Below, in pieces: positions 12,949-30,993 of a DNA stretch of 41,593 nucleotides; the first letter of the stretch is position 1, and the number at the start of each line of letters is the position of its first letter. The translations under genes were made by a program, and so were the position numbers. The notes below the pieces were generated by a model. It did not search any database and was not told the DNA's origin. It worked only from the letters and a program-made list of their open reading frames with translations. The stretch lies in the IMG/VR virus record IMGVR_UViG_3300046808_000846, positions 1 through 41,593 of that record; one strand, 5' to 3'. Origin of the DNA: a virus.

Positions 12949-14815
12949 CGCATACCGGCGGCTTTCGAGCGAGGCGAGCGCAGAGCCAGGGCGATGGGAC
13001 ACGTCCCGGGCCGAATACCAGCGCGGCATGATGGATGCCGTCGTCGACCCCGAGACGGAACAGATCATCATCATGAGTTCGGCGCAGGTTGGGAAAACGG
13101 AGCTTCTCAACAACGTCCTCGGCTTCTTCATCGACTACGACCCCTGTCCGATCCTCGTTTCGCAGGCGACCAAGGACATGGCCGAGGCGTACTCGAAGGA
13201 CCGGCTCGCGCCGATGGTTCGAGACTCCCCAGCGCTGGCTTCGAAGGTCAGCGATTCGAAGAGCCGGGACTCGGGGAACACGATCCTGCACAAGACCTTC
13301 CCAGGGGGGCACGTCACCATCATCGGCGCCGAGTCCCCCACGGGGCTCCGCTCGCGCCCGATCCGAGTGCTTCTCATGGACGAGGTGGACTCCTATCCGG
13401 CAAGCGCCGGGGCCGAGGGCGACCCGGTTTCCTTGGCGATCAAGCGGACGACAACCTTCTGGAATCGGAAGGTCATCCTGACCTCCACCCCGACGATCAA
13501 GGGCTTCTCCCGCATCGAGGCGGCTTACCTCGAAACGGACCAGCGGCGATTTTTTGTCCCGTGCCCGCTCTGCGAGGAACCCCACACCTTGCAATGGGGG
13601 AACGTCGTCTGGGGCGAGAAGACGCCGGCCAAAGGGGATCCGGCCCGGGCCGTTTTCCAGTGCCCGCATTGTTCTGGCTTCTACACGACCGGCCAGAAGA
13701 ACGCGGCGGTCCGCCGGGGGCGCTGGATTGCAGCGGCTCCCTTCCGGGGCAAGGCCGGGTTCCACCTGAGCGAGCTTTACTCACCCTGGCGCACGCTGGC
13801 CGAGACCGTGCGGGACTTCCTTGAAAGCAAGTCCTCCCCCGAGCGGCTGAAGACGTTCGTGAACACGGCCCTCGGGGAGACGTGGGAAGACGCCGGGGAG
13901 GTGGTGCACGATCACGAGCTTCAGGCGCGGGCCGAAACCTACCCCGCCGAGGTGCCCGCCCGGGCGCTCTACCTCACCGCAGGGATCGACACGCAGCGGG
14001 ACCGGTTGGAAGTGGAGGTGGTCGGCTGGGGCTCCGGGGAGGAGTCGTGGAGCATCGCTCACCACGTAGTTTTTGGCGACCCGGACATTCCCGAGGGCAC
14101 CAAGGGCTCGCCGTGGGACGCGCTCACCGACTTCATCCGCCGCCGGTGGAAGCACGAAAGCGGGGTGGACGTATCCGTCTCCCACGCGCTCATCGACTCC
14201 GGCGGCTCGAACACCTCGGCGGTGTACGCCTATTGCAAGCGGCACAAGGGCGACCGGGTTTACCCGATCAAGGGCAAGGGCGGGGACGGCCTTCCGATCA
14301 TCGGGCAGCGGCAGCGGACCCGGACGGCCAAGAGCAAGACCCCGGTGGACCTCTTCATCGTCGGGACGGACAACGCAAAGCACGTCATCCACCGGCGGCT
14401 TCGCATCAACGAGCCGGGCCCAGGTTACTGCCATTTCCCCGCCGGGCGGGATCCCGAGTGGTTCCGGCAGCTCACGGCAGAGAAGTGCATCACCAAATTC
14501 GTCCGGGGGTTCCCGAAGCGGGAGTGGATCAAGGCGGACGGGCGTCGCAACGAGGCGCTCGATTGCCGGGTGTACGCATTCGCCGCGTTCGTGCTCGCGG
14601 CGCCCCAGCTCGACCGCGTCGCCTTCCGGTTGAAGCAGCAGGCCGAGCGGCTCCCCAAGCCCAAGGCGACACCGGTGAAGGCTCCCACGGAAGCCCCTCA
14701 ACAGGAGGCGGAGGAAGAAAACGCACAAGACGCGCCCCCTGAGGAGGGGCACGCTAAAGCCAAACCTGCCCGCGCTCGCAGGAGAAGCGGCTTTGTCCAC
14801 TCATGGCGACTTTAA
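12899..14815 (+). CDS. Terminase large subunit (GpA family)
   Basis: The gene encodes 638 aa. I chose the GTG at 12899 because the family's conserved N-terminus (RPRLTPSQWADAYRRLSSEA) begins just after it. An ATG at 12842 would add 19 residues out of family. The ATPase has SSAQVGKTELL (Walker A-like, near residue 60) and VLLMDEVDSYP (Walker B, near 157). A Cys4 zinc site (CPLC, CPHC) lies near 222-258. The nuclease region has AGIDTQRDRLEVEVVGWG, ALIDSGGSNTSAVY and a final EALDCRVYAFAAFVLA. It cuts concatemers and drives DNA into the prohead. The C-terminal 50 residues are a Pro/Glu/Ala/Lys tail containing the first copy of the 18-bp repeat. Confidence 0.92.
   Translation: MSLWKRRPRLTPSQWADAYRRLSSEASAEPGRWDTSRAEYQRGMMDAVVDPETEQIIIMSSAQVGKTELLNNVLGFFIDYDPCPILVSQATKDMAEAYSKDRLAPMVRDSPALASKVSDSKSRDSGNTILHKTFPGGHVTIIGAESPTGLRSRPIRVLLMDEVDSYPASAGAEGDPVSLAIKRTTTFWNRKVILTSTPTIKGFSRIEAAYLETDQRRFFVPCPLCEEPHTLQWGNVVWGEKTPAKGDPARAVFQCPHCSGFYTTGQKNAAVRRGRWIAAAPFRGKAGFHLSELYSPWRTLAETVRDFLESKSSPERLKTFVNTALGETWEDAGEVVHDHELQARAETYPAEVPARALYLTAGIDTQRDRLEVEVVGWGSGEESWSIAHHVVFGDPDIPEGTKGSPWDALTDFIRRRWKHESGVDVSVSHALIDSGGSNTSAVYAYCKRHKGDRVYPIKGKGGDGLPIIGQRQRTRTAKSKTPVDLFIVGTDNAKHVIHRRLRINEPGPGYCHFPAGRDPEWFRQLTAEKCITKFVRGFPKREWIKADGRRNEALDCRVYAFAAFVLAAPQLDRVAFRLKQQAERLPKPKATPVKAPTEAPQQEAEEENAQDAPPEEGHAKAKPARARRRSGFVHSWRL
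14714..14731 (+). repeat. 18-bp late repeat, copy 1
   Basis: GAAGAAAACGCACAAGAC lies inside the 3' end of the terminase gene, 71 bases before the next start codon. A CCCC/GGGG hairpin follows it. Three identical copies lie at 17291, 24605 and 30955. Confidence 0.85.
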
Positions 14816-15339
14816 CCAAAGGCGAAACCTTCACACTCTCCTGCACGGCGCGACCCGACTCGACCGTTCAGGCGAAGTTCGGCGGGCCCGAGGTGCACAC
14901 CGTCAACGGGACGCTGACGAGCGAGCTTCAGGTTGACCCCGCAACGGGGACGCAGGCGCAGGTGTGGGTTGTCAACGCCGACACGACCGCATGGGCGCTC
15001 GGAAACTACGGTTACGAACTCTGGGTGACGTTTGCGGACGGGACCAAGCGCATCGCGCTCCGGGGCAACCTAGTGCTCTCCGCGTCGTTCTCCGCGCTCC
15101 CCAGCGGATCGAGCGCCGTCTCGAAGCTCCAAACCATCGTGGACTCTTTGGAGTCGATGATTGCGGGCAACGCCCCGGACGGGGTGAAGCGATACAAGAT
15201 CAACAACCGCGAACTGGAACGTTACTCGGCGGTCGAACTCCTCAGCCTCCTCAAATACTGGCGCGGGCGGCTCCTGGCTGAAAAGCGGCGTGCTGCGGGT
15301 GAATCCCGGATCGGGCGCCGTATCGAAATGCACTTCTAA
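14803..15339 (+). CDS. Head-completion candidate (gpW-like C-terminus, Ig-like N-terminus)
   Basis: The gene encodes 178 aa, starting MATLTKGETF. Residues 1-100 look like an immunoglobulin-like beta sandwich (FTLSCTARPDSTVQAKFGG, YGYELWVTFADGTK, LRGNLVLS), as in phage baseplate or head proteins of the BppU kind. Residues 105-178 are helical and include YKINNRELERYSAVELLSLL and KYWRGRLLAEKRR, resembling lambda gpW-type head-joining proteins. Lambda also places W between terminase A and portal B, as here. The start overlaps the terminase end by 13 bases. Role: probably stabilises the packaged head for tail attachment; the fused N-terminal domain is unusual. Confidence 0.55.
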   Translation: MATLTKGETFTLSCTARPDSTVQAKFGGPEVHTVNGTLTSELQVDPATGTQAQVWVVNADTTAWALGNYGYELWVTFADGTKRIALRGNLVLSASFSALPSGSSAVSKLQTIVDSLESMIAGNAPDGVKRYKINNRELERYSAVELLSLLKYWRGRLLAEKRRAAGESRIGRRIEMHF

Positions 15340-15342
15340 GAA

Positions 15343-16866
15343 ATGGGCTTCCTCTCGAAACTGTTTGGCGGCGGGGGAACCGAAGAACGCTCGGCGACCG
15401 TTGTCGGAAAGCGCGCCGGGCGCATGATGAACGCGGCGGGGCTTCTTCAGCAGGCCGCCGCCACGGGCCGCCTTGAGCAGTCTTGGCAAACGTGGCCGAC
15501 GACCCCGGACGCTCTGATTTACCAGAACTGGCGCGTCCTCGTGGCCCGCTCGCGGGAGCAGTACGAGAACAACGACCACGCCCGCAAATTCATTCAGATG
15601 GTCCGCGAAAACGTCGTCGGGCCGTGCGGCTTTGAGCTTCAGGCCGGGATCAAGGATCCGAACGGGACCACGGACATCCTCGCTTCCAAGGCGATCGAAG
15701 AGGCGTTTGACGCCTTCAGCCGCAAGGGGACGTTTGAAATCACCGGCACAATGTCCCGCGCCGAAGTCGAGCGGCTCATCGTTTCGACGGTAGCCATCGA
15801 CGGCGAGGTGTTTGCGGTGAAGGTCCGGGGATCCGAAGCGCCGAACGGAGCTTTTTGCGTCCAGCTCATGGACCCGATGCTTGTGCATCCACAGCACTTC
15901 GAACCCCTCGGGAATGGAAACTCCATCCGGCACGGCATCGAGTTCACCCCCGCAGGCCGCCCGGTGGCGTATTACTTCCAGCAATACGACGAGCGCCAAG
16001 TGGGCTACGTCCAAATGACGTGGAAAAGCGCCATGCGGATCCCGGCGGAAGACGTCATCCACCTCTTCGTCCCCGAGAAGATCGGGCAGAAGCGCGGGCT
16101 GCCGTGGATGCGGACGGCGCTCTGGAGGATGCGAATGCTCTCCGGCTTTGAAGACGCGGCGGTCACCAACGCGCGGATCGGGGCGGCCAAGATGGGGTTC
16201 TTCCGCGACCCCAACATGGACAGCGAACCCGGGGACGAGCCTTTCCAAATGGACGCGGAGCCCGGCGTTTTCGAAGACATCGGGAGCAAGGAGTTCGTTC
16301 AGTTCAACCCGCAGTTCCCGAGCGACAATTTCGACCCGTTTGTCAAAGCCATGCTTCGCAGCATCGCAAGCGGCTTGGGCGTTTCGTACAACAACATCGC
16401 CAACGACCTCACCTCGGTCAACTTCAGCTCGATCCGGCAGGGGGCGCTTGACGAGCGCGAGGTTTGGAAGGGGCTTCAGGAGTGGTTCATCTCGTCTTGG
16501 TGCTGGCCGGTGTACGAGGCTTGGCTCCAGATGGGCCTCCTCTCCAACAGCATCACCGTCGCGGGCAAGCCGCTGAAATTCGAGCGGCTTGAGAAATACA
16601 AGGCCGTCTCGTGGCAGGGCCGCCGGTGGAGTTGGATTGACCCGGCGTCCGAGATGAGCGCGAACCAAATCGCCCTCGGCCTCAACCTCACCTCGCCCTC
16701 CGCCATCATCCGGGATTCCGGGCGCGACCCCGAAGACGTCTTCGAGGAAATCGCGCGGGACAAAAAGGAGAAGGCGCGCCTCGGCATCGAAGACGTTCCG
16801 CTCCCAGGCTCGCCCCAGGCGCAACAGCAGCAGCAGAAACAAAAACCAAAACCAAGCAATGAGTGA
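15343..16866 (+). CDS. Portal protein (lambda family)
   Basis: The gene encodes 507 aa, starting MGFLSKLFGG. Family landmarks include SREQYENNDHARKFIQMVRENVVGP near residue 70 (split by a turn), the VSTVAIDGEVFAVKV core, ADEDVIHL-like PAEDVIHLFVPEKIGQKRGLPW near 235-257, and ASGLGVSYNNIANDLTSVNFSS near 345. The C-terminus is Gln/Lys/Pro-rich. Portal proteins form the dodecameric ring through which DNA enters and leaves the head. Length and motifs are normal for the lambda portal group. The stop overlaps the next gene by 8 bases. The gene follows the gpW-like gene by three bases, in the lambda W-B order. Confidence 0.92.
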   Translation: MGFLSKLFGGGGTEERSATVVGKRAGRMMNAAGLLQQAAATGRLEQSWQTWPTTPDALIYQNWRVLVARSREQYENNDHARKFIQMVRENVVGPCGFELQAGIKDPNGTTDILASKAIEEAFDAFSRKGTFEITGTMSRAEVERLIVSTVAIDGEVFAVKVRGSEAPNGAFCVQLMDPMLVHPQHFEPLGNGNSIRHGIEFTPAGRPVAYYFQQYDERQVGYVQMTWKSAMRIPAEDVIHLFVPEKIGQKRGLPWMRTALWRMRMLSGFEDAAVTNARIGAAKMGFFRDPNMDSEPGDEPFQMDAEPGVFEDIGSKEFVQFNPQFPSDNFDPFVKAMLRSIASGLGVSYNNIANDLTSVNFSSIRQGALDEREVWKGLQEWFISSWCWPVYEAWLQMGLLSNSITVAGKPLKFERLEKYKAVSWQGRRWSWIDPASEMSANQIALGLNLTSPSAIIRDSGRDPEDVFEEIARDKKEKARLGIEDVPLPGSPQAQQQQQKQKPKPSNE

Positions 16867-17329
16867 CGAACAGCAGCAGCCGCAGGAACAGCCGAACCCC
16901 GAGCACGATCTCGCCGTGCAACGATCTCAGGCCGTGATGGCCGTGGCGCGCGCGTGGGGCATCGAAACGCACGTGGGCCTCACCGCCCTCGTGACAGCGA
17001 TCGGCAACATCCAACTCCTCGACTCCAAGAACAAGGACTACGGGACGCAGAACATCGCGCGCTTTGGCGAAATCGGCGTCGTGGTGCGGGCCTCGGACAA
17101 ACTCGCGCGGCTCGAAACTCTGGCCTTCTCGGGCCGTCAGCCAAACCACGAAAGCGTCCTCGACTCATGGCGGGATCTCTCGCTTTACGGCCTCATCGGG
17201 CAGCTTTGCCACGCCGGGACGTGGCCGGGCGTAGCGCGCCCCCAACAGCAGGCGCCGCAGGTTGTCACGATCGGCGGGCCGGAGGGCGGTGAAGAAAACG
17301 CACAAGACCCCGAGCAGCCGCAACCTTAG
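16859..17329 (+). CDS. DUF1599-like protein (nucleotide modification-associated)
   Basis: The gene encodes 156 aa, starting MSDEQQQPQE. The conserved block, about residues 55-110, reads LLDSKNKDYG, then FGEIGVVVRASDKLARLETL, then ESVLDSWRDLSLYGLIG. These features (K-x-DYG, a DK-x-x-RL helix, an E-x-x-x-D-x2-x-DL helix) match DUF1599, called nucleotide modification-associated domain 1 in family lists. It is a helical fold related in style to MazG/dUTPase-like pyrophosphatases. The gene sits between portal and capsid, where lambda has no such gene. With the glycosyltransferase and ParB-like genes it suggests modified DNA. The C-terminal tail carries repeat copy 2. Confidence 0.65.
   Translation: MSDEQQQPQEQPNPEHDLAVQRSQAVMAVARAWGIETHVGLTALVTAIGNIQLLDSKNKDYGTQNIARFGEIGVVVRASDKLARLETLAFSGRQPNHESVLDSWRDLSLYGLIGQLCHAGTWPGVARPQQQAPQVVTIGGPEGGEENAQDPEQPQP
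17291..17308 (+). repeat. 18-bp late repeat, copy 2
   Basis: GAAGAAAACGCACAAGAC lies 30 bases before the capsid start codon, inside the 3' end of the DUF1599-like gene. The leader between repeat and ATG ends TAGTTTGCCACCATG, similar to that before the tail sheath gene. Confidence 0.85.
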
Positions 17330-17338
17330 TTTGCCACC

Positions 17339-19186
17339 ATGGAAGCCGACCTCGAATCTTTTCTCGCCGAACCGCAGCGGCGGAGCGGCGTTTTTGAGGC
17401 GTCCACCGCGAACGCTGAAAAGCGAACCATAGAGCTTTCCTTCAGTTCGGAAATCGAACTGGAACGCTGGCCGGGCATGATCGAAGTCCTGAGCCACGAA
17501 GCCGGAGCCGTGCAGCTCGACCGCCTCAACAGCGGAGCGCCGCTCCTCTTCAACCACGACCTTGACGAGGTGCTCGGAGTCGTCGAATCCGCGAGCATCG
17601 GGGCAGATCGGAAAGGCCGGGCGGTTGTCCGGTTTGGAAATTCCGAGCGCGCCACCGAAGCATTCCGCGACGTGCAGGACGGAATCCTGCGCAACGTCTC
17701 CGTGGGCTACCGCATCAAGGAAGTCAAACTCGACGAAAGCCGCGACGACGTTGACCGCTACGAGGTCCGCAAGTGGGAGCCTTACGAGGTTTCCATCGTG
17801 ACGGTCCCGGCGGACACCTCCGTCGGCGTCGGTCGCTCGCTCAAACCCCAAACTCATCCCAAAACTATGGAATCCAATCAAAACGCCTCCTCTGGGGGCG
17901 CGCAGGCTCCCGACCTTGAGCACGTTCGCTCCGAGGCGGGAAAACAGGCAATCGCGGGCGAACAGGCTCGCGTGGCCGCAATTCTGGACGCTGGCACCCA
18001 ATTCGGTCAGCGTGAACTCGCCGAGAAGGCTCTCCGCGAAGGTGTAAGCGTGGAACAGTTCCGCGTGATGCTCCTCGAAGCCGTTTCCAAGAGCAACGCC
18101 CGCATCGTCGAATCCTCCAAGATCGGCATGAGCGACAAGGAAGCGCGCGGGTTCTCCCTCGTGAAGCTCCTCCGCGCTCTGGCCGCCGAAAACCCCGAGG
18201 ATCGGAAGCGGTTCGCCGAACAGGCATCCTTTGAACTCGAAGCGTGCCGCGCCGCCGCCGACCGTTACCACGGATCGGTCCGCGACAACGGAACCGTGCT
18301 TCCCGTCGAGGTGATGCTCAGCGGAACCCGTGCGGGCGAAATCATCTCCGCCTCCGCGATCAGCGGCGGCATCACGACCGGCCCTAATGCCGTGCCCACG
18401 ACCCTGCAAAGCGGCTCGTTCATCGACGTGCTGCGGAACAAGGCCAAGCTCCTGAAGCACACGACCGAACTCGCCGGGCTCGTCGGCAACATCGACATCC
18501 CGAAGAAAACCGACGCCTCCACCGCCACCTGGGTGGGTGAAGACACCGCAGGCTCCCGGCAGGCGGTAAACTTCGGGCTCGTGTCGCTGCGGCCCAAGAC
18601 CGTCACCAACTACGCGGAAATCACTCGCCGGATGCTCATGCAAACCGCGATCGGCGTGGAAGGCGTGGTGCGCGAAGACCTCATGGCTCAGCTCGGGTTG
18701 GAAATCGACCGCGTGGGCTTCTACGGCACGGGGTTGAGCAACCAGCCGACCGGGCTCAAGAACGTGTCCGGCATTGGCAGCGTCACCTTTGCGACCACCA
18801 ACAAGCCGACGTTCGCCGAACTCGTGCAAATGGAAACCCTTGTTGCGTTGGCGAATGCCGACGTGGACGGGATGGTTATGTTCGCTCGCCCCGACTTCCG
18901 TGGGTACGCGAAGACGACCCGCCGCCTCAGCACAGCGACCGACTCGAACACCATCTGGGAGCCGGGCAACACCGTGAACGGCTACCCCGTCGAGGTCACA
19001 AACCAGATCGTTTCCGGGGACGTGTTCTTTGGAAACTTCCGCGACCTCGTCATCGGGATGTGGGGCGGGCTCCAGATCACCGTGGACCCCTACACGTTCA
19101 GCACGCAGGGCCGCATCCGCGTCGTCCAGTTCCAGGACATCGACTACGCGGTTCGCCGCGCCGCTTCGTTCGCATACGGAGCGTAA
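17339..19186 (+). CDS. Prohead protease fused to HK97-type major capsid protein
   Basis: The gene encodes 615 aa, starting MEADLESFLA. Residues 1-170 are an S78-type prohead protease: LLFNHD (catalytic His near 66) and ILRNVSVGYRI (catalytic Ser near 121). A helical scaffold-like stretch follows (about 190-300). The capsid proper starts near 310 with EIISASAISGGITT and runs through TWVGEDTAGSRQ, RRMLMQTAIGVEGVVREDL and GYPVEVTNQI. These are usually separate genes. An in-frame ATG at 17867 (residue 177, MESNQNASS) follows an A/C-rich leader like those of other genes here. A 439-aa scaffold-capsid protein may therefore also be made, giving the excess of capsid over protease that assembly needs. 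Confidence 0.88.
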   Translation: MEADLESFLAEPQRRSGVFEASTANAEKRTIELSFSSEIELERWPGMIEVLSHEAGAVQLDRLNSGAPLLFNHDLDEVLGVVESASIGADRKGRAVVRFGNSERATEAFRDVQDGILRNVSVGYRIKEVKLDESRDDVDRYEVRKWEPYEVSIVTVPADTSVGVGRSLKPQTHPKTMESNQNASSGGAQAPDLEHVRSEAGKQAIAGEQARVAAILDAGTQFGQRELAEKALREGVSVEQFRVMLLEAVSKSNARIVESSKIGMSDKEARGFSLVKLLRALAAENPEDRKRFAEQASFELEACRAAADRYHGSVRDNGTVLPVEVMLSGTRAGEIISASAISGGITTGPNAVPTTLQSGSFIDVLRNKAKLLKHTTELAGLVGNIDIPKKTDASTATWVGEDTAGSRQAVNFGLVSLRPKTVTNYAEITRRMLMQTAIGVEGVVREDLMAQLGLEIDRVGFYGTGLSNQPTGLKNVSGIGSVTFATTNKPTFAELVQMETLVALANADVDGMVMFARPDFRGYAKTTRRLSTATDSNTIWEPGNTVNGYPVEVTNQIVSGDVFFGNFRDLVIGMWGGLQITVDPYTFSTQGRIRVVQFQDIDYAVRRAASFAYGA

Positions 19187-19202
19187 CGATCCCTAGCTAG
19201 GC

Positions 19203-19247
19203 GGGGCGGGGGGGGGTTTCTTGGTTGCTCCTCCCGCCCCAACTTTT
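19203..19247 (+). terminator. Terminator after the capsid gene
   Basis: GGGGCGGGGGG (19203-19213) pairs with CCTCCCGCCCC (19230-19240), 11 pairs with one wobble, followed by AACTTTTAAC. It lies 17 bases after the capsid stop. It may lower expression of the genes behind the capsid. A CCTAGCTAGG palindrome just precedes it. Confidence 0.65.
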
Positions 19248-19263
19248 AACCAAGCCGCCTCTT

Positions 19264-19455
19264 ATGAAGATTCGCTGCACTCAACAGTTTTTGCACCAAG
19301 GCGCTCCCGTGAAAGTCGGGGAAACGGTCGAAATGGAAGATTTCACCGCGCGCTCGATCATCCATCAGGGCTCCGCCGTCGAGGTGGCGGGGGAATCCGA
19401 AGCGCCCCCAGCGGCTAAAGCCGAACCCAAACGCGCGGCCAAATCGAATGAATGA
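19264..19455 (+). CDS. Small hypothetical protein behind capsid
   Basis: The gene encodes 63 aa from the ATG at 19264 (MKIRCTQQFL). The first 40 residues are a compact beta-like unit (FLHQGAPVKVGETVEMEDFT) and the tail is Ala/Glu/Lys/Pro-rich. Small proteins of this kind often follow HK97-type capsid genes and may be minor head proteins. I cannot assign a function. The stop overlaps the next start by 8 bases. Confidence 0.55.
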   Translation: MKIRCTQQFLHQGAPVKVGETVEMEDFTARSIIHQGSAVEVAGESEAPPAAKAEPKRAAKSNE

Positions 19456-19744
19456 TTTTCGCCCCAACCCTTCTCAGCCGCACACGCAGCTTGCGGTTGA
19501 AACAAGCGCCCAAACTCTTTTGGAGCTTGGGCTTTCGGTGCACCCAAACACGGCTTTCATGCAGATTTACGTGGAAGGCTCAGACGTGCGAGTAACAGTC
19601 AACGGAGACGAACCAACATCGGAAATCGGCATCCGTTGGAACGCAGGATCGCTTTGGGAAATTGGTTACTCCGAAGCCCTCGCGCTGAAAGTTGTCGGCG
19701 TCAACGGTCCGGCAACGCTTCAAGTTGCAGCTTTCAAACAGTGA
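19448..19744 (+). CDS. Small beta-rich head-region protein, unknown
   Basis: The gene encodes 98 aa, starting MNDFRPNPSQ. Short alternating hydrophobic strands (MQIYVEGSDVRVTVNG, GIRWNAGSLWEIG, LALKVVGVNGPATLQVAAF) suggest an all-beta domain with a jelly-roll-like feel. Such proteins can be head decoration proteins. It lies between the capsid and a 687-aa structural protein. Its base composition is less GC-rich than the capsid and matches the next gene, so the two may have arrived together. The function is unproven. Confidence 0.55.
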   Translation: MNDFRPNPSQPHTQLAVETSAQTLLELGLSVHPNTAFMQIYVEGSDVRVTVNGDEPTSEIGIRWNAGSLWEIGYSEALALKVVGVNGPATLQVAAFKQ

Positions 19745-19750
19745 TTTCCA

Positions 19751-21814
19751 ATGCGCCAAATCAACTCGGATTCCTTCAAAACCAGCTCGAACATCTCTTC
19801 GAAATTTCGAGAGACCTTTGAGACGTGGCCGTCTTCGTCCTGGAACCAGAGCAAGGCGTCCGGGGACATCATCACAGTAGACGGGAACGCCCTTGGAGCG
19901 TCCTACCTTGTCATTTCGGTCGACCCGCTAAGTTCTGGCACCGAAAGCTTTGTAGACACGGTTCAGTCTTTTCAGATGCCGATTGAGTTGGCGATTGGCG
20001 CTCATCTTTCGCAAAACGCTTGGGGTCAAGACGCGTCAATCGAATTTATTGACAGGGATTTCATCACGCCATCCGTTGCGGATATTGAAATCGCCAGCAT
20101 CACGCAAGCCACGACCACTTTAACGGTCGACACGGTTTTGCCGCACAACCTTGCGGTCGGAAAACGAATCGGCATCCGTGATTGCAGCAACGCGGTCGCC
20201 AACTACCCATCGCTCGTCATTGCAACGGTCAACTCGCCAACTCAATTCACTTGCACAGGCGGGCCCAACTCGACCATCCCGTCTCAGACGATCACGAACC
20301 CTGTAGGAGCAAAAGGGTTTGTGTATTTCCGCCCGGCTTTGAGTAACAGCCGGAATGGCTCTTCTCTGCACTTCGAAAGCTCGACCGCGACGCTTGGGTT
20401 TATCTATGGAAGAGCATCCGCAGGCGATGCAATCGCCTTCGGTTCTGGAAGCGGCAACGCAATCAACGCGCGGCAAGCCACAACGGTCGGAACAACGGCT
20501 TCGGTGGCGCTTGTATCTTCGCCATTCACTTACTCTTGGACGCCGACAAACGAGTATCGTTTAACCATGATGGCCGACAGGCTTCAGTGGTCCGACGCGC
20601 TTATTGACTCGGTTGCGGCAAGCACAAACAGGTTGCTGCGGACTCAAGTCGTCCCTAATCCTTCGAAGGACTATTTCCTTCGCCTAAAGGTCAGAACAGA
20701 GCCTTCTACCACCAAGCCTTCGGCGCAAATTGTTACCGTTAGCAAAGCCGGGGCAACGACGGCCACGGTCACAACGGACGTTCCGCACGGACTTGTCACC
20801 GGCGATCTTGTTATCGGGTACGGCGTTCGCGATACGGGGACAGGTTTTTATCCGGCCCTTACCACGCCAGCCGCTGTTACTGTCCTGACTCCGACAACCT
20901 TCACGGTTGTTTGGGGGACCGCCGCAACAAACACAAGTTACGGCGGGTTTGTCTGCAAGGTAAACGCTGCTTGCCCGCTGCCCGGAGCCATCTCGCAATC
21001 CATTCAGTCCGCCGTCAAAACGACTTTGGTGGACGGACAAAGCCAAATTGTTTTGGTTGGTTCTGCAAACTGGTCCGGCTTCTTTGTCGGGGACTACGTG
21101 AACCTGCTTGGAGTTCGGGACACAGCAACAGGCGCAAGCATCGGAATTGACGGCGCTTGGAAGGTTGCCAACATTTCCACGACGTCGCTCACACTGGTGA
21201 ACATTCCCGGCAACTCTCCAACGGTTGCTGACTTCTCGATTATCAACTGCGGCGGCGGCGTCATAAAACGAACCGATTTCCGTATTTCGTATGCCCGCAT
21301 CTTTGACTTCGATCGCGAGCGCGTGGAAATCCTTCCTCGCCCAACTGGCGACATCGCAAACGCCGCTCCCGTTGCAGTCCAGAACACTCCGGCGGTAACG
21401 GTATCGAGCGGAACCATCACGACCGTTTCCGCCGTAACGGCCGCAGGCACGCCCACAGCGCCGGCGACCCCGTATTTCCTAAACAGCACGGCCAGCACAA
21501 ACGGGAACCTAATTGTTACCGGGACGAGTGGGCTGCAAGCCTTCTATGCAACCAACACGGGGGCGGCAGTTGCTTATGTTAAGCTGTACAACAAAGCCAC
21601 GGCGCCGACGGTTGGAACAGACATTCCTGAAATGGTCATTCCTATTCCCGCAGCGGTTGGGGGTGTTCCAGGATGGGTTGAGCTAACGCCCGGATTTAAC
21701 GCCTACCGATTTGCGCTTGGGCTGGGAATTGCAATCACTGGCGGGGTTGCGGACAGTGACACAACCGCCGTTGCAGCAGGACAAGTGAAAGTGAAACTTT
21801 CCCGAACCGTTTAA
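19751..21814 (+). CDS. Large repeat-bearing virion protein, candidate capsid decoration/adhesin
   Basis: The gene encodes 687 aa, starting MRQINSDSFK. It is rich in Thr, Ser, Ala, Val and Gly with almost no charge clusters, like fibres and adhesins. Three diverged copies of a beta repeat are visible (about 117-175, 325-390, 430-495). They share LP/VPH-N/G-L-x2-G-x2-(I/V)-G, a VRD-type turn and P-T-x-FT. The first 110 residues (SSSWNQSKASGDIITVDGNA and on) look like a glycan-binding or attachment region. The last 90 residues form another beta domain ending KVKLSRTV. Its position between capsid and head-tail joining genes argues for a head decoration protein, not a tail fibre. It is lower in GC than its neighbours. 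Confidence 0.55.
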   Translation: MRQINSDSFKTSSNISSKFRETFETWPSSSWNQSKASGDIITVDGNALGASYLVISVDPLSSGTESFVDTVQSFQMPIELAIGAHLSQNAWGQDASIEFIDRDFITPSVADIEIASITQATTTLTVDTVLPHNLAVGKRIGIRDCSNAVANYPSLVIATVNSPTQFTCTGGPNSTIPSQTITNPVGAKGFVYFRPALSNSRNGSSLHFESSTATLGFIYGRASAGDAIAFGSGSGNAINARQATTVGTTASVALVSSPFTYSWTPTNEYRLTMMADRLQWSDALIDSVAASTNRLLRTQVVPNPSKDYFLRLKVRTEPSTTKPSAQIVTVSKAGATTATVTTDVPHGLVTGDLVIGYGVRDTGTGFYPALTTPAAVTVLTPTTFTVVWGTAATNTSYGGFVCKVNAACPLPGAISQSIQSAVKTTLVDGQSQIVLVGSANWSGFFVGDYVNLLGVRDTATGASIGIDGAWKVANISTTSLTLVNIPGNSPTVADFSIINCGGGVIKRTDFRISYARIFDFDRERVEILPRPTGDIANAAPVAVQNTPAVTVSSGTITTVSAVTAAGTPTAPATPYFLNSTASTNGNLIVTGTSGLQAFYATNTGAAVAYVKLYNKATAPTVGTDIPEMVIPIPAAVGGVPGWVELTPGFNAYRFALGLGIAITGGVADSDTTAVAAGQVKVKLSRTV

Positions 21815-24108: not shown

Positions 24109-24120
24109 CCAAAAAGGAAC

Positions 24121-24600
24121 ATGAGCAACCCACAGTTCACCCTCGCCAAGATTGCAGCGCGCGACCTCGGAGCACGGGAGCAGCCCCCGGGCTCAAACAA
24201 AGGGCCGCAGATCGAGAAATTCCTTCGGGCCACCGACCTCGACGGGGACGGGTGGCCGTGGTGCGCGGCGGCGGTCAGCTATTGGGTCCAGCAGTGGGCC
24301 AAGCTCAACGGATGGAAGGGCAAGGTGCCCCGCATCGCGGGCGTCTCCCAGTTCCCCGTATGGGCGCAGAAGAACGGGCTCAAATGCGGCTACGCGCCGA
24401 AGACAAACGACATCGTGATTTTCACCTTCTCCCACATCGGCGTTGTCGAAAACATCGGGCCGGATTGGGTGGACACGATCGAGGGCAACACCAACGACGA
24501 AGGCTCTCGGGAGGGCTATGAAGTCGCACGGCGGCGCCGCCCCCTCACTCAGTGCAGGCTCTTCATCAGCCTCCCGCCGATCGTCACCGTCTCGGCGTAG
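24121..24600 (+). CDS. CHAP-type peptidoglycan hydrolase
   Basis: The gene encodes 159 aa, starting MSNPQFTLAK. It belongs to the short CHAP/TIGR02594-like hydrolases: DLGAREQPPGSNKGPQI, catalytic Cys48 in GWPWCAAAVSYW, His105 in FSHIGVVE, and EGNTNDEG near residue 122. It should cut peptide stem or crosslink bonds. There is no signal peptide. Its place inside the baseplate operon, between gpV and gpW, suggests a tail-borne lysin that opens the wall during infection. It could equally be the endolysin, since no other clear one is seen. The A-rich leader (CCAAAAAGGAAC) gives a Shine-Dalgarno. Repeat copy 3 follows its stop. Confidence 0.8.
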   Translation: MSNPQFTLAKIAARDLGAREQPPGSNKGPQIEKFLRATDLDGDGWPWCAAAVSYWVQQWAKLNGWKGKVPRIAGVSQFPVWAQKNGLKCGYAPKTNDIVIFTFSHIGVVENIGPDWVDTIEGNTNDEGSREGYEVARRRRPLTQCRLFISLPPIVTVSA

Positions 24601-24604
24601 GGAA

Positions 24605-24622
24605 GAAGAAAACGCACAAGAC
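24605..24622 (+). repeat. 18-bp late repeat, copy 3 (non-coding)
   Basis: GAAGAAAACGCACAAGAC lies four bases after the hydrolase stop codon and 32 bases before the gpW start. Being outside any gene, it shows that the nucleotide sequence, not an encoded peptide, is what is kept. CCCC-N9-GGGG and CCTTTAATC follow it. Confidence 0.85.
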
Positions 24623-24654
24623 CCCAGAAGCGGCGGGGCCTTTAATCGTTCCCG

Positions 24655-24990
24655 ATGCGCGGGCTCGATGCCACCACCGGGAAGCCGCTTGAGGGCTTCG
24701 ACCACCTAGTCCAGTCGATCCGGGACATTCTCACGACCCCGATCGGCACTCGCGTCATGCGCAGAGACTACGGCTCGCGGCTCTTCCAGCTTATCGACGC
24801 CCCGCTGAACCCCCGCACGATTCTGGAAATCTACGCGGCTACGGTGGAGGCGCTCATCCGCTGGGAGCCCCGCATTTCCGTGCAGAGGGTCAGCACGGCG
24901 CAGGTGCAGCCGGGGAGCATCACGTTGACCCTTGAGGCGTTGGACGTCAGCACCGGAGAGCAGGTGATTGTGGACGGGATTGTCGTATGA
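24655..24990 (+). CDS. W: Baseplate wedge protein (gpW/gp25-like)
   Basis: The gene encodes 111 aa, starting MRGLDATTGK. Landmarks of the gpW/gp25 family are clear: LVQSIRDILTTPIGTRVMRRDYGSRLFQLID (read in parts, residues 19-50), RTILEIYAATVEALIRWEPRI (57-77) and strands to the end. This small lysozyme-like protein bridges the baseplate hub and wedge in P2 and T4. It follows repeat copy 3 and overlaps the next gene by four bases, starting the P2-type W-J-I cluster. Confidence 0.9.
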   Translation: MRGLDATTGKPLEGFDHLVQSIRDILTTPIGTRVMRRDYGSRLFQLIDAPLNPRTILEIYAATVEALIRWEPRISVQRVSTAQVQPGSITLTLEALDVSTGEQVIVDGIVV

Positions 24991-25901
24991 GCGGATCGTT
25001 TTCTCCCGTTGACCTCACTGGAATTCCCGCCCCGACGGTGGTGGAGACGCTTTCCTATGAGACGGTCCTCGCCGCCATGCTCGCGGACCTTCAGGCGCGC
25101 GACCCCGCCTTTTCGGCCCTCGTCGAATCGGATCCGGCTTACAAAGTCCTCGAAGTGGCAGCCTACCGGGAGACGCTCATCCGGCAGCGCGTCAACGACG
25201 CGGCAAAGGCCGTCATGCTCACTTACGCGCTGGGGACTGACCTCGAAAACCTCGGGGCGCTCTTTGGCGTCACGCGCAAGGTGCTCGATCCGGGCGACCC
25301 GACGGCTTACCCGCCCGTGGATCCGACTTATGAGGGGGACGAGTCCCTTCGCTACCGGATCACTCTGGCGCTCGAAGGGCTCTCTACAGCAGGGCCGGAA
25401 GGCTCCTACATTTTCCACGCTTTGAAGGTCGCCTCGATTGTGGACGTGGCCGTGGCTGGGCCGCCCGAAACAAGCCCCGGGGTGGTGCGCGTGACGGTCC
25501 TCAGCAGCACGGGCAGCGGGCAGGCAACCAGCGCCGAAATCTCCGCCGTCCAGACCGAACTCAACGCCGACGACGTGCGCCCGCTCACGGATCAAGTCGT
25601 CGTCCAGAGCGCCGTCATCGTGAGCTACGCGCTCGCGGTGAAGCTCTTCGTTTTCCCCGGGCCGGACCCGGCGGTGATTCAGGCGCAGGCGCTCGCCAAC
25701 CTTCAGACCTACGTGGCAGCCGCGCACAAGATTGGGCAGGACGTGCGCGTCTCCGCGATCTACGCAGCCGCCCAGGTTTCCGGCGTGGAGCACGTCGAAC
25801 TCCTCGCAACCGGCGGGGCTATCACCGGCGACCTCCTCGTCTCGAACGTGCAAGCATCCTACTGCACCGGCATCACCGTCACCTATCAACTTGCCTCCTA
25901 G
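24987..25901 (+). CDS. J: Baseplate assembly protein J
   Basis: The gene encodes 304 aa, starting MSGSFSPVDL. It belongs to the baseplate J/gp47 family: VVETLSYETVLAAMLADLQ at the start, AAYRETLIRQRVNDAAKAV, then the typical GTDLENLGALFGVTRKV, DESLRYRITLALEGLSTAGPEGSYIFHAL (two parts), and VRVTVLSSTGSGQAT. The C-terminal third carries the beta domain ending in GITVTYQLAS. The protein forms wedges around the spike and transmits the contraction signal. Length is close to P2 gpJ (302 aa). The stop overlaps the GTG of gpI. Confidence 0.92.
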   Translation: MSGSFSPVDLTGIPAPTVVETLSYETVLAAMLADLQARDPAFSALVESDPAYKVLEVAAYRETLIRQRVNDAAKAVMLTYALGTDLENLGALFGVTRKVLDPGDPTAYPPVDPTYEGDESLRYRITLALEGLSTAGPEGSYIFHALKVASIVDVAVAGPPETSPGVVRVTVLSSTGSGQATSAEISAVQTELNADDVRPLTDQVVVQSAVIVSYALAVKLFVFPGPDPAVIQAQALANLQTYVAAAHKIGQDVRVSAIYAAAQVSGVEHVELLATGGAITGDLLVSNVQASYCTGITVTYQLAS

Positions 25902-26578
25902 TGGACCTCCTACCTCCCAACGCAACGCCGCAGGAGCGGGCGCTGTCTGAAGCGACGGCGCGCGTGGGGGACGTGCTTGTTCCGATCCGCTCGCTATGGA
26001 ACCCGCAGACGTGTCCCGCTGCACTCCTGCCTTGGCTGGCTTGGGCAATGTCGGTGGAAGACTGGGACTCGACGTGGACCGAGCAGCAGAAGCGCGACGT
26101 CATCGCCGCCTCCGTTGAGGTGCACCGGCACAAGGGCACCATCGGCGCGATGAAGGCGGCCTTGCGCCCGTTGAATTACGAAGTCCAGATCGACGAACCG
26201 AGCGCGCTCCCGTACCAGTTCCGCATCCGGCTCGACCCCGGGCGCTCCTCCTCGGTGGACGTGACGCAGCTTACTTACTCGCGCGCGATTGAAATCGCCC
26301 TTCGAGTCAAAAACGTGCGCTCCTGGCTCATCGGGGTGCAGGCCATGCGGCAGAGCACCTCCGCGATCTACTTCGGCGCGGCGACCGTCTCCGGGCTCCT
26401 CGCCTCGATCTATCCCTACATCGTCACCAGCATCATCCAATCCTCCGGCCTCTTCTTCGCGTTGGCCGTATACAGCAAAGCGGTCGCCTCGGTTTACCCG
26501 CAAGTCCTGCCCGCGAGGCTCTTGGAAGACGGCTCTTATAGGCTCCTCGAAAACGGCGCTCTCCGGTCGCTCGAATAA
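25901..26578 (+). CDS. I: Tail protein I (baseplate wedge)
   Basis: The gene encodes 225 aa from a GTG at 25901 that shares a base with the gpJ stop. The P2 gpI pattern is visible: LLPPNATPQERALSEATARV, IRSLWNPQTCPAALLPWLAWAMSVEDWD (in parts) and VIAASVEVHRHKGTIGAMKAAL. The C-terminal 70 residues (SAIYFGAATVSGLLASIY and on, ending RLLEDGSYRLLENGALRSLE) are a fibre-like extension. They contain two back-to-back LLE(D/N)G repeats. gpI links the wedge to the tail fibre, so the extension may dock the fibre encoded next. Confidence 0.85.
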   Translation: MDLLPPNATPQERALSEATARVGDVLVPIRSLWNPQTCPAALLPWLAWAMSVEDWDSTWTEQQKRDVIAASVEVHRHKGTIGAMKAALRPLNYEVQIDEPSALPYQFRIRLDPGRSSSVDVTQLTYSRAIEIALRVKNVRSWLIGVQAMRQSTSAIYFGAATVSGLLASIYPYIVTSIIQSSGLFFALAVYSKAVASVYPQVLPARLLEDGSYRLLENGALRSLE

Positions 26579-26581
26579 CGT

Positions 26582-27892
26582 ATGCCAACAGACTCGAAAC
26601 TCTCTCAGCTTCCATCCGTCGGCTCCTACCCGGTGCCGGACACGTTCATTTTCGAGTTGGTCTCGGCAGGGATCGGCAACTTTCAGGCCGTGTTCAACTC
26701 CGCCGTGCGCGGGAACCGGCTGGACCAAATGGCGACCCCGACGGCGGCGGTTTCCATGGGCGGGCAGCGCATCACCAACCTCGGGACGCCGACCGCCTCC
26801 ACGGACGCCGTGACAAAGGCGTATTGCGACGCCTTCCTTTTGGGCCTCGACCCCAAGGCATCCGTTTTTTGCGCCTCGACCGCCAACCTTGCGGGGACGC
26901 TGGACGGCACCGGCCAAATCCTCACCGCGTCGGCAAACGGCGTTCTGACCATGGACGGCCAGAGCCCCGCCGTGGGGAAACGGGTGCTCGTCAAAAACAA
27001 CTCCACGGCGGCGCAGAACGGAATTTACACGGTCACCAACGCGGGCAGCGTCAGCACTCCATGGGTTCTCACCCGGGCCACGGACGCAAACAGCGGGACC
27101 GTCCTCACCACTGGCAGCTTCTTCTTTGTTGAAGCGGGCACGACCCAAGCGACGACCCAATGGGCGCTCCAAACGCAAGACCCGATCACGGTCGGGACCA
27201 CGGCGCTCACCTTTGTGCAGGTAAACGGGGGCGCAACCTACTCCGCAGGGACCGGGCTCTCCCTCGCGGGCAATGTCTTCTCGGTCAATTACGGCACCAC
27301 GGCGGGCACCGCGCTCCAGGGCGCGGGGGCGCTTGGCACTCCTGCCAGTGGGACGCTCACGAACTGCACCGGGCTCCCCGTCTCAACAGGCATCTCCGGG
27401 CTCGCGGCCAACGTCGCGGCCTTTCTGGCGACGCCCAGCAGCGCCAACTTAGCGGCGGCGGTGACAAACGAAACCGGCACCGGCGGCGCTTTGGTGTTCG
27501 CAAGCAACCCGACTCTCGCGGGGGTGACGCTCTCGGGGACTGCCAATCTGAAGGCCGCCACGGACACGATCACCACGGTTTCTCCGGTTGCGGGCGTGGT
27601 CACCCTGGACCTTTCTCAAGGGCAGGAGTTCCTTGTGAACCTCACGGGAAACGTCACCTCGTGGACGCTCACCAACGCCCCGACCGGCGCGTTTTCCTTT
27701 TCGGTTTCACTGAAGCAAGACGCCACCGGCGGGCGCACGGTTGCTTGGACGTTTACGGGCAAGACGCTTTCGTGGCAGGGCAATGCAGCTCCGACAGTCA
27801 CCTCGGTTGCCAACAAAGAAGACGAGTTCGCCTTCAAGTCCCGGGACAGCGGGGCGACTTTCAAGGGCTACATAGCAGGGCAGAATTTCTAA
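26582..27892 (+). CDS. Tail fibre protein
   Basis: The gene encodes 436 aa, starting MPTDSKLSQL. The first 90 residues hold a fibre motif (MGGQRITNLGTPTASTDAVTK) also found in many phage fibres. The next 110 form a beta domain seen in fibre shafts (LVKNNSTAAQNGIYTVTNAG and WALQTQDPITVGTTAL). A Gly/Thr/Ala-rich shaft follows, with ANVAAFLATPSSANLAAAVTNE, a repeat widespread in phage fibres. The C-terminus has a beta-sandwich tip (SLKQDATGGRTVAWTF and on). No collagen repeats or lectin signature are clear. It probably contacts the host surface together with the two proteins that follow. Confidence 0.75.
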   Translation: MPTDSKLSQLPSVGSYPVPDTFIFELVSAGIGNFQAVFNSAVRGNRLDQMATPTAAVSMGGQRITNLGTPTASTDAVTKAYCDAFLLGLDPKASVFCASTANLAGTLDGTGQILTASANGVLTMDGQSPAVGKRVLVKNNSTAAQNGIYTVTNAGSVSTPWVLTRATDANSGTVLTTGSFFFVEAGTTQATTQWALQTQDPITVGTTALTFVQVNGGATYSAGTGLSLAGNVFSVNYGTTAGTALQGAGALGTPASGTLTNCTGLPVSTGISGLAANVAAFLATPSSANLAAAVTNETGTGGALVFASNPTLAGVTLSGTANLKAATDTITTVSPVAGVVTLDLSQGQEFLVNLTGNVTSWTLTNAPTGAFSFSVSLKQDATGGRTVAWTFTGKTLSWQGNAAPTVTSVANKEDEFAFKSRDSGATFKGYIAGQNF

Positions 27893-28539
27893 TGATTGCC
27901 GGACCACGAGTCGCAGTTTTCGCGCAGCGCAAGAGCGGGATCTTGACCCGCTCTAACGTGACGAACAACGCGGACACGCCGTTTACGGGCTTGGACGGCT
28001 CCGTGGCGATGACGGCGAGCCCGGCCTCGGCTCTTTCTGTCCCGTTGGCCGCAACTCAGTGGGGCACCTTGGATTACTGCCTTGAGGGCTTCGTGAAGAT
28101 TTCCTCCTTCGGTGGAAGTTACACTCAAATTTACTCCGACGGAGCGAACTGGACGCTTTATTGCAACCACGCGACATTGGGGTCCGGCCAGTGGGTTTGC
28201 CAAACCGTCTCGAACAGCGGACTGGGGGCAACAACGCTCAACGCATGGCTGCACTTCGCGGCGACAAAGCAAGGCACGACCACGCGGTTTTTCGTTCAAG
28301 GCGCGCTTCTCGGGACCGGGAGTTCCGGCGGGGCTTCGCTCAACGGAAACTCTTCAGCGTCCTTTGGATTCGGGACCGGCGGCAACTGCCCGAACTGCCT
28401 CTTTTCCAACCTCCGCATCGTGGTGGGAAGCCCGGTTTACACGAGCGCATTCACGCCGCCGTCCGGCCCGCTCGGTGTGATTCCGGGAACGAAATACCTC
28501 TACCGAGCCCCATACGGAACCAACTACCTCACCGACTGA
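27892..28539 (+). CDS. LamG/concanavalin-like tail protein
   Basis: The gene encodes 215 aa from the ATG at 27892 (MIAGPRVAVF), overlapping the fibre stop. The core resembles a LamG-type jelly roll: YCLEGFVKISSFGGSYTQIY, NAWLHFAATKQGTTTRFFVQG, and NLRIVVGSPVYTSAFTPPSGP near the end. Such domains bind sugars and are used by phages as receptor-binding tips. The gene lies between a shaft-type fibre and the collar-domain fibre, so it may be a side-adhesin. A longer frame from 27160 exists but would run through the fibre gene. Confidence 0.65.
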   Translation: MIAGPRVAVFAQRKSGILTRSNVTNNADTPFTGLDGSVAMTASPASALSVPLAATQWGTLDYCLEGFVKISSFGGSYTQIYSDGANWTLYCNHATLGSGQWVCQTVSNSGLGATTLNAWLHFAATKQGTTTRFFVQGALLGTGSSGGASLNGNSSASFGFGTGGNCPNCLFSNLRIVVGSPVYTSAFTPPSGPLGVIPGTKYLYRAPYGTNYLTD

Positions 28540-28542
28540 CCT

Positions 28543-30477
28543 ATGCCAGCAACCTACCAGACTCTCCTCACAAACTACGGGCAGGCCGCGCTTGCGACCG
28601 CGATTTCAAACGGAACCGCAGTCAACATCGCCACCCTCGTCGTGGGGGACGGCGGCGGCTCAGCGACGACCCCAAGCGCGTCCCAGACCGCGTTGGTGAA
28701 CCAAGTCTATTCCGTTGCAATCAACTCGGTAACGGTGGACCCTTCCAACCCCAACTACGTTGTGGCGGAAGCAACCATCCCGAGCAACGTCGGCGGCTGG
28801 ACGATCCGCGAGGCGGGCCTCAAAGACGCCTCCGGGAACCTCTTCGCGGTTGCCAACTACGCGGACACCATCAAGCCCGTGGTGGCATCCGGCACGGCTG
28901 CGGACCTTGTCATCCGGTTCATCTTCCAAGTGTCGAACACGGCGGCGGTCACGCTCCTCATCGACCCGGCGGTGGTTATGGCTTCCCAATCGTGGGTGCT
29001 GAGCCAGGCCTACGTGAAGCGAGACGGAAGCTTGGCGATGACTGGGCCGTTGACGCTTTTGGGTGATCCGACGCTTGCGAACCACGCCGCCAGCAAAAAC
29101 TACGTGGACAGTCGATCGGGCGTCGATTCCGTGCCGATCGGATCCGTGTTTTGGACGGCGATGAACACCGCCCCGGCGGGTTCACTTGTGTGCGATGGCT
29201 CGGCGGTTTCTCGGACCACCTATTCGGCCCTCTTCTCCAAGATCGGGACCGTTTACGGCTCCGGGGACGGATCAACGACGTTCAACCTGCCCGATCTTCG
29301 CGGGCAGTTTGTGCGCGGCTGGGACAACGGGCGCGGCAAAGACATCTCGGTCTTCACCGGCAACCAGACCAACCTCAGCACGACCATCTCCGGGCTTTCG
29401 AGCACGGCGACGATGTACGTGGGGCAGCCGGTTTCGGGCACGAACATCCCAAACGGGACGACCATTGCCAGCATCACCAACAGCACGACCATCGTGCTCT
29501 CCGCTGCGGCTACGGCCACCATCACGGGCAACTCGCTGACGTTCACGGGCCGCGCGTTCGCCTCCGCTCAGAGCGACGATTTCAAGAGCCACGCGCACCG
29601 CTTTGCCACGATTGCAAACATCGTCAACGGGGCAAGCCCAACCACGGCAACGCTTGCGGACTGGGAAGCCGGTGGCGCAACGCAGGGGCCGGGCAACGTC
29701 GAACCGCTCGGCGGCGCGGAAACTCGCCCAACCAACGTGGCGATGCTCCCGTGCATTAAGGCGTACCTCCTGAGCAACGTGGACATCGCGCTCATCAACT
29801 CGGCAATCACGCTCTACGTGGCGAAGGCCGGGGACACGATGACGGGGCCGTTGGTGCTCTCCGGCGCGCCGACGCTCAACCTGCACGCCGCCACCAAGTC
29901 CTACGTGGACGGCCTCATTGCCACCTGCCAAGCGGCTCTTGGGTTCACCCCGGTGAACAGGGCCGGGGACACGATGACGGGCTTGCTGACCCTCTCGGGG
30001 ATGCCCACAGCAACGATGCACGCAGCCCCGAAGCAATACGTGGATACGGCGGTCACATCCGCAGTTCCGGCGGGCACCGTGATTTACGTAGCAATGGCGT
30101 CCGCCCCTTCTGGGTATTTGAAAGCAAACGGCGCGGCGGTCAGTCGAACGACTTATGCGGTTTTGTTTGCAGCAATCGGAACGACATTCGGATCCGGTGA
30201 CGGCTCGACGACCTTCAACCTGCCGGATTTGCGATCCGAATTTATTCGCGGCCTTGACGACGGGCGCGGGGTAGACACGGGACGCGCGCTCGGATCAAGC
30301 CAAGCGGACGAGCTAAAGAGCCACACTCACACCTATTTGACTCGCGCATACACCGCCGTCCAATCCGGCAGCAACCTTGCTTGCTGGGTTGGTGACGCTA
30401 CCGCAAACACAGGGGCGACCGGCGGAACGGAAACTCGTCCTCGCAACGTTGCTCTTCTCGCAGTGATTAAATTCTAA
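28543..30477 (+). CDS. P2 gpH-like tail fibre with two tail-collar domains
   Basis: The gene encodes 644 aa, starting MPATYQTLLT. The N-terminal 150 residues match the gpH attachment domain (LLTNYGQAALATAISNG, VNIATLVVGDGGG, GGWTIREAGLKDASGNLFAVANY in parts). Three linker repeats of the type GDTMTGPL-x3-G-x-P-T-x5-A-x-K-x-YVD follow. Two tail-collar domains, near residues 200-265 and 510-580, share YGSGDGSTTFNLPDLR, and each is followed by a KSHAH/KSHTH motif and a GG-(A/T)-ETRP-(T/R)-NVA block. The gene therefore carries an internal duplication of the collar unit. It should form the distal host-recognition fibre. No chaperone (gpG-like) gene follows. Confidence 0.85.
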   Translation: MPATYQTLLTNYGQAALATAISNGTAVNIATLVVGDGGGSATTPSASQTALVNQVYSVAINSVTVDPSNPNYVVAEATIPSNVGGWTIREAGLKDASGNLFAVANYADTIKPVVASGTAADLVIRFIFQVSNTAAVTLLIDPAVVMASQSWVLSQAYVKRDGSLAMTGPLTLLGDPTLANHAASKNYVDSRSGVDSVPIGSVFWTAMNTAPAGSLVCDGSAVSRTTYSALFSKIGTVYGSGDGSTTFNLPDLRGQFVRGWDNGRGKDISVFTGNQTNLSTTISGLSSTATMYVGQPVSGTNIPNGTTIASITNSTTIVLSAAATATITGNSLTFTGRAFASAQSDDFKSHAHRFATIANIVNGASPTTATLADWEAGGATQGPGNVEPLGGAETRPTNVAMLPCIKAYLLSNVDIALINSAITLYVAKAGDTMTGPLVLSGAPTLNLHAATKSYVDGLIATCQAALGFTPVNRAGDTMTGLLTLSGMPTATMHAAPKQYVDTAVTSAVPAGTVIYVAMASAPSGYLKANGAAVSRTTYAVLFAAIGTTFGSGDGSTTFNLPDLRSEFIRGLDDGRGVDTGRALGSSQADELKSHTHTYLTRAYTAVQSGSNLACWVGDATANTGATGGTETRPRNVALLAVIKF

Positions 30478-30496
30478 CCACCAACCACCGAAACAA

Positions 30497-30664
30497 ATGA
30501 AAGCACTGATCGCACGTCTCGCCGAACCGTCCTCCTGGGCAGGAATCTCCGCGTTCCTCGGAATGCTCGGTATTCAAATCCCAACCGACACATACAGAGC
30601 CATTACCCTTGCCGGCTCTGGAATCGCCGCCGCCGCCGCCGTCTTGCTGCCTGAAAAGAAATGA
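30497..30664 (+). CDS. Small holin-like membrane protein
   Basis: The gene encodes 55 aa, starting MKALIARLAE and ending LLPEKK. WAGISAFLGMLGIQIP and ITLAGSGIAAAAAVLL are two hydrophobic segments separated by a short polar turn. The pattern LAEPSSWAG-x-AF-LG and a final LPEKK is common in small phage proteins annotated as holins. The start follows an A/C-rich leader. The stop overlaps the next gene (ATGA), which encodes a membrane-anchored coiled coil, so the pair looks like a lysis cassette placed between fibre and sheath genes. Confidence 0.65.
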   Translation: MKALIARLAEPSSWAGISAFLGMLGIQIPTDTYRAITLAGSGIAAAAAVLLPEKK

Positions 30665-30993
30665 TCGACCCCGCTGCTTCCTCCTCGCCGGACATCCTCC
30701 ACACGATCACTGCGCAGGGGCCGCTTGTGGCGGTCCTCGTGGTGGCGATTGTCTGGCTTCAGAAAACGATGTCCACGCAGGCGAGCGAGGCGGCGGCGGC
30801 TCTTCGCGCCGCGAACGAGCTTTTCCAGAAAGAGCGCGACGCTCGGCTGGACGCGATGGACGAGCACATTCGGAACCTCGATGCGCGCTCGCAGGCGTGC
30901 GAGACGGATCGGATAAAGCTTTGGCAAATGCTCGCCCGTCGCCCCGTGCCCAAAGAAGAAAACGCACAAGACGCACACCCTTCCCACTCCTAA
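30661..30993 (+). CDS. Membrane-anchored coiled coil, spanin- or holin-like
   Basis: The gene encodes 110 aa, starting MIDPAASSSP. One hydrophobic segment (GPLVAVLVVAIVWLQ, about residues 20-34) is followed by a charged coiled coil (ALRAANELFQKERDARLDAM, ARSQACETDRIKLWQM). This is the shape of inner-membrane spanins or holin partners, and the gene sits right after a holin-like gene. No outer-membrane lipoprotein partner is embedded in it, although a small lipoprotein is encoded elsewhere (40633-40779). The last 15 residues are encoded by repeat copy 4 and the flanking bases, so they may not matter to the protein. Confidence 0.55.
   Translation: MIDPAASSSPDILHTITAQGPLVAVLVVAIVWLQKTMSTQASEAAAALRAANELFQKERDARLDAMDEHIRNLDARSQACETDRIKLWQMLARRPVPKEENAQDAHPSHS
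30955..30972 (+). repeat. 18-bp late repeat, copy 4
   Basis: GAAGAAAACGCACAAGAC lies inside the 3' end of the coiled-coil gene and 30 bases before the sheath start, the same distance as copy 2 to the capsid. The leader ends TAATTTTGCACCATG, close to that of the capsid. Confidence 0.85.

Follow-up and report, generated by a model that had tools for sequence, protein, structure and literature searches.

The window, the whole 41,593-nt stretch of DNA that forms IMG/VR virus record IMGVR_UViG_3300046808_000846, carries on its plus strand four blocks of late genes, each preceded by one copy of an 18-bp element, GAAGAAAACGCACAAGAC. The gene names at the four junctions are backed by PHROGs matches. 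The features at issue, with the elements listed as candidate operators, are as follows:

10062..10424, plus strand: late transcriptional activator, proposed reader of the operator (phrog_836, E 6e-16)
14714..14731, plus strand: operator copy 1, exact repeat, in the 3' end of the terminase large subunit gene, with the gpW-like/portal block 71 nt on
14755..14760, plus strand: possible -10 of copy 1, TAAAGC, read from the sequence; weak, about 3 nt off the usual register
14803..16866, plus strand: head genes of block 1, gpW-like head-tail joining protein and portal (PHROGs)
17291..17308, plus strand: operator copy 2, exact repeat, ahead of the capsid/protease gene
17327..17332, plus strand: -10-like box TAGTTT, separated by 18 nt from the operator and by 6 nt from the capsid ATG (17339); coincides with the stop of the upstream gene
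17339..19186, plus strand: first gene of block 2, protease/major capsid (PHROGs)
24605..24622, plus strand: operator copy 3, exact repeat, intergenic, ahead of baseplate W
24643..24648, plus strand: -10-like box TAATCG, separated by 20 nt from the operator and by 6 nt from the baseplate-W ATG (24655)
24655..26578, plus strand: head genes of block 3, baseplate W, J and I-like (PHROGs)
30955..30972, plus strand: operator copy 4, exact repeat, ahead of the sheath gene
30991..30996, plus strand: -10-like box TAATTT, separated by 18 nt from the operator and by 6 nt from the sheath ATG (31003); shares bases with the upstream gene's stop codon
31003..33049, plus strand: head genes of block 4, tail sheath and the next gene, of major tail tube/head-closure type (PHROGs)

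The element occurs exactly four times in the window and on the plus strand only. A recount agrees with the sequence-only reading that identical copies start at 14714, 17291, 24605 and 30955, and that 71, 30, 32 and 30 nt separate their ends from the start codons of the gpW-like, capsid/protease, baseplate-W and sheath genes, respectively. No further site with up to three mismatches was found on either strand of the window, and dinucleotide shuffles yield a mean of 0.07 such sites. As had been reported, copies 1, 2 and 4 encode EENAQD in the last codons of the preceding gene, while copy 3 comes after the stop codon of the endolysin gene at 24600. A conserved C-terminal peptide would account for those three copies, but as an explanation of the repeat it is almost inconceivable: copy 3 lies outside the upstream gene, copies in relatives follow stop codons, synonymous positions are invariant among the four copies, and other phages would encode different peptides at the same sites. 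The earlier argument that the DNA and not the peptide is conserved was thus right.

Alignment of related phages at the four junctions, which had been proposed as a check, returns the exact 18-mer at the same junctions in close relatives. It is also present in G006 (IMGVR_UViG_3300032239_000473), where the capsid protein is 63% identical to that of the window; the flanks of these copies differ. Of 13 viral-contig matches to the exact 18-mer, four (L005, L010, L011, L013) are single copies in unrelated-looking contexts and were taken as chance. More distant relatives carry an altered element, altered at all junctions together: GAAACCAACGCACAAGAC in four copies in G003, and GAAGCAACCGCACAAGAC in three copies, plus one two-base variant, in G004. 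Such concerted change at all junctions of a phage is what is expected of a site read by a single trans-acting factor.

This pattern extends across the 20 phages analysed, six isolates (including the E. coli phage HeidiAbel) and IMG/VR contigs. Each possesses its own element of about 18 bp, usually found at the end of the terminase gene and at the capsid, baseplate-W and sheath genes. Scanning each genome with its own element recovers four to five sites in most phages (two in G023) and almost none on the reverse strand; at the terminase-end junction a copy is present in 19 of these phages, all except G020. A de novo repeat search in the isolates (Mano, FoX1, HeidiAbel Bas97, MQ-4, Arya and PPpW-3) gives a different private element in each. 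Its copies lie at the terminase end, within the capsid gene as annotated, and ahead of both the baseplate-W and the sheath gene; five of the six isolates have an extra copy at the 3' end of the late-activator gene, directly ahead of the lysis genes. Core identity is 0.93 within phages versus 0.56 between them, and the flanks are unrelated (upstream flank identity within phages, 0.29).

A junction test, in which the region upstream of baseplate W was compared with the sheath, terminase-end and capsid regions against 200 random placements, supports the same distribution. In most element-bearing contigs only 0-3 of the 200 placements scored as well; the weakest cases were Mano (7/200) and G023 (13/200), partly owing to wrongly extrapolated sheath starts, and sheath sites missed here were recovered by the rescan with each phage's own element. 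No shared element was found at the tested junctions of ZRG1, G014, G021, G022 and G024. Three of these, the Mu-like contigs G021, G022 and G024, encode a phrog_836 protein and lack the element at these junctions, which counts against a promoter reading. Prophage-like loci in contigs of Billgrantia, Alcaligenaceae, Bordetella, Castellaniella, Pararhodobacter, Fuscibacter, Marinobacterium, Haematospirillum, Microvirga, Limnohabitans and Salinisphaera share an element before the sheath gene and 30-35 nt before baseplate W; with 1-5 of 100 random placements as good in each, single cases are only suggestive, and the constant distance is more so.

The position of the element at module borders would suit a recombination linker that lets related phages swap gene blocks. 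That is extremely unlikely, since a crossover point common to several phages would need the reverse of the pattern seen, in which the element is uniform inside each phage and differs at about half of its positions from one phage to another; moreover, the flanks are unrelated and some copies lie inside the capsid gene.

The spacing around the element is that of an activator-dependent promoter of the Mu type, with the element at about -50 to -31, an in-register -10-like box and no good -35. When the baseplate-W ATG is set as +1, the element falls at about -50 to -31 and an A occupies -11 in 18 of 24 phages. The same register was carried to 68 other sites, none of them anchored on an ATG. There, AT content at -12 to -8 rises to 0.57-0.78, with flanking positions at roughly 0.25-0.4, and the best match to TATAAT scores 3.49 of 6 in register versus 1.7-2.7 at control offsets. 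A sigma-70 scan of the plus strand of the late region found no promoter-like site, which fits the requirement for an activator. Furthermore, of nine phages whose sheath leader is long, eight have an intrinsic terminator (GC hairpin and T run) whose end lies 8-12 nt before the sheath element, and in Mano a terminator upstream of the sheath gene is annotated in the record itself. A gene block directly behind a terminator requires its own promoter.

An element acting at the RNA level, as a translation enhancer or as an antitermination or processing signal in the leader, would explain the fixed distance of 30-34 nt to the baseplate-W start in all phages and the missing Shine-Dalgarno sequence there. 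It is nevertheless very unlikely, because elsewhere the distance to the start codon varies (71-135 nt at the terminase end; 71-101 nt at the sheath and capsid sites of the isolates) while the -10 box keeps its register, most phages with a long leader have a terminator directly ahead of the sheath element, and RNA folding of the window copies gave no significant fold. Among the roles originally offered for the 18-mer, a phage-specific internal promoter or activator site is therefore strongly supported; a processing site and a linker for block exchange both lack support, given the unrelated flanks, the concerted change at all sites of a phage and the -10 box at fixed spacing.

The proposed reader of these promoters is the protein encoded at 10062-10424. 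Of 38 related records, 25 encode a phrog_836 member, among them nearly all of the long records that bear the element, and Mu's own Mor and C carry the same phrog_836 label. Pfam Mor is matched by seven of 13 phrog_836 relatives (best 5.8e-14), and a Pfam Mor search with the window activator itself gave no match. In hhalign, its similarity to Mu Mor is weak (E 0.001) and to Mu C weaker still. The earlier label "Mor-like" suits the family, whereas the window protein lacks an individual Pfam Mor match; it likely belongs to the Mor/C family proper. Its AlphaFold model reaches a pTM of 0.51 and returned no Foldseek PDB match with E below 0.7, so the fold lends no support.

Divergence of the element tracks that of the activator (Mantel r 0.66, p 0.0002, 16 phages) more closely than that of any of seven structural proteins (r 0.40-0.52), and the partial correlation given the mean of the seven is 0.43 (p=0.0006). 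For the C-terminal DNA-binding part of the activator the partial correlation is 0.42 (p 0.0005), and for the N-terminal part 0.20 (p 0.09); the signal sits in the C-terminal part. A first test, restricted to the HTH columns with a rigid element alignment and one control protein, gave a partial correlation of 0.12 that did not reach significance (p about 0.1). The later design (best-shift element comparison, whole protein, seven control proteins, G020 and G040 left out) was chosen after that result, and Mantel tests on related sequences are in any case suggestive rather than conclusive. The identification of the 10062-10424 protein as the activator is thus backed both by phrog_836 membership and by co-divergence with the element. 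The evidence for promoters holds whoever reads them, and the window activator is small, divergent and without an individual Mor match; another factor, such as a different phage regulator or a phage-modified sigma factor, could be the reader. We consider this unlikely, given that phrog_836 divergence follows the element better than that of seven other proteins, beyond shared phylogeny, and that the gene accompanies nearly all of the long element-bearing records. Directly upstream of the activator gene, positions 9612-9742 of the window hold short, tandem-like GC-rich repeats with GGGCGCACG units.

The 18-mer is very probably the operator of four coordinately switched, activator-dependent late promoters, with the 10062-10424 protein as its reader. 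This reading brings together what was computed for the element: it is repeated, sits at conserved junctions, changes in concert, is followed at fixed spacing by a -10 box, stands in a terminator context and co-diverges with the activator. From these features we infer binding, activation, the exact +1 and leaderless translation. The activator would bind the 18-mer at about -50 to -31 and bring host RNA polymerase to a -10 box with no usable -35. Every assembly block (joining/portal, capsid, baseplate and sheath) would have one such promoter, switched on late in infection. For baseplate W, capsid and sheath of the window, the predicted +1 lies at the start codon or within about 2 nt of it, which would give leaderless messages. 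Operator copies and activator would then drift together in each lineage, producing a phage-private code.

At baseplate W, the distance from element to ATG is nearly constant in all element-bearing phages (26-34 nt, depending on how the element is cut), and the predicted +1 is the ATG itself. None of the six isolates has a 4-nt Shine-Dalgarno match at baseplate W, compared with 31-73% of their other genes. From the A at -11 and the missing Shine-Dalgarno match, the baseplate-W message is predicted to be leaderless. In the window, a 4-nt match is found in two of 27 start regions checked between 10062 and 36821. As this phage does nearly everywhere without Shine-Dalgarno sequences, their absence at its own baseplate W is an uninformative argument; the scarcity may reflect a host that initiates without them. 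An inverted repeat around the -10 box, covering the baseplate-W ATG, was observed in HeidiAbel (L163:9496-9519, z -4.7) and in G006 (L200, about 4246-4275, minus strand, z -2.9). Such a repeat would hide the start codon in read-through RNA and expose it in leaderless RNA.

Activator-dependent late promoters are ordinary in principle. Mu has four that depend on C (Plys, PI, PP and Pmom), with the C site upstream of the -35 (PMC4461284), and its Mor site at the middle promoter Pm spans -51 to -36 (PMC4287176). P2 likewise places four Ogr-dependent late promoters, PP, PO, PV and PF, at comparable operon heads (PMC3931495), so the statement that P2 has no such element was wrong as to function. The system described here resembles Mu in its four proposed late promoters without a good -35, in a candidate activator site just upstream of or overlapping the -35, in an activator of the phrog_836 family and, in the isolates, in an activator gene that lies directly ahead of the lysis genes. 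It differs in that Mu sites are dyads and the elements here mostly are not: in a test against shuffles, no dyad in the window element rose above the shuffles, and only the element of G019 is clearly palindromic. By gene content these phages are not transposable, and a near-exact private element within each phage and predicted leaderless starts also set them apart from Mu. With P2 they share separate, here predicted, promoters for the packaging/head, baseplate (VWJI) and sheath (FI) operons (PMC3931495). Unlike its P2 counterpart, however, the window activator is not a zinc-finger protein. The P2-type site TGT-N12-ACA matches three times in the window, with 3.6 matches expected by chance, and never at the junctions. 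Lacking both the dyad of Mu and the site of P2, the element system is filed under neither.

The closest parallels are the isolates of Jilinvirus, Foxunavirus, Manovirus and Hiroshimavirus (HeidiAbel, Arya, FoX1, Mano, PPpW-3 and MQ-4), which share the late gene order and the junctions of the window and each have a phrog_836 activator and a repeated element of their own. They differ from the window in the sequence of the element, in the location of the capsid element within the protease-capsid gene, in a longer sheath leader, usually with a terminator upstream, and, in most, in an additional lysis element. No published description of the element in these phages was found, in a search mostly outside subscription journals; as far as searched, the private co-drifting code and the predicted leaderless starts are previously undescribed.

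A broader generalization is possible, and we lean slightly against it: that in an entire clade of contractile-tailed phages and prophages with small genomes, activator and operators drift in concert as a private code unreadable to diverged co-infecting relatives, with a leaderless baseplate-W message throughout, E. coli phages included. The analysis offers a promoter map with base-level predicted starts for a phage clade that is large and little studied. It also supplies about 16 natural pairs of activator and operator in which to follow how a regulator and four or five sites change jointly while the regulon is kept. If the pairs are orthogonal, they would be candidates for activator-promoter tools and might act as a barrier to gene exchange among related phages. 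For an E. coli phage, a structural message without a leader would, if true, be an uncommon natural case.

Further features were observed. In all six isolates (L163:5164-5261 in HeidiAbel; equivalents in L161, L162, L164, L165 and L166) the capsid element lies inside the annotated protease-capsid gene, and an in-frame ATG at codon 186-225, with a conserved start that mostly reads RDAxGNLVR, is found 79-101 nt downstream of where the element begins. This suggests a nested coat-protein start in the six isolates, with a predicted product of 455-479 aa. Xanthomonas phage FoX1 contains related 45-bp repeat units at two far-apart loci (L162:21822-22120 and 32017-32220). In the window, the gene at 11492-12388 matches Pfam TAGT (TET-associated glycosyltransferase) and phrog_842 and adjoins a ParB-like gene; a role in DNA hypermodification is possible.
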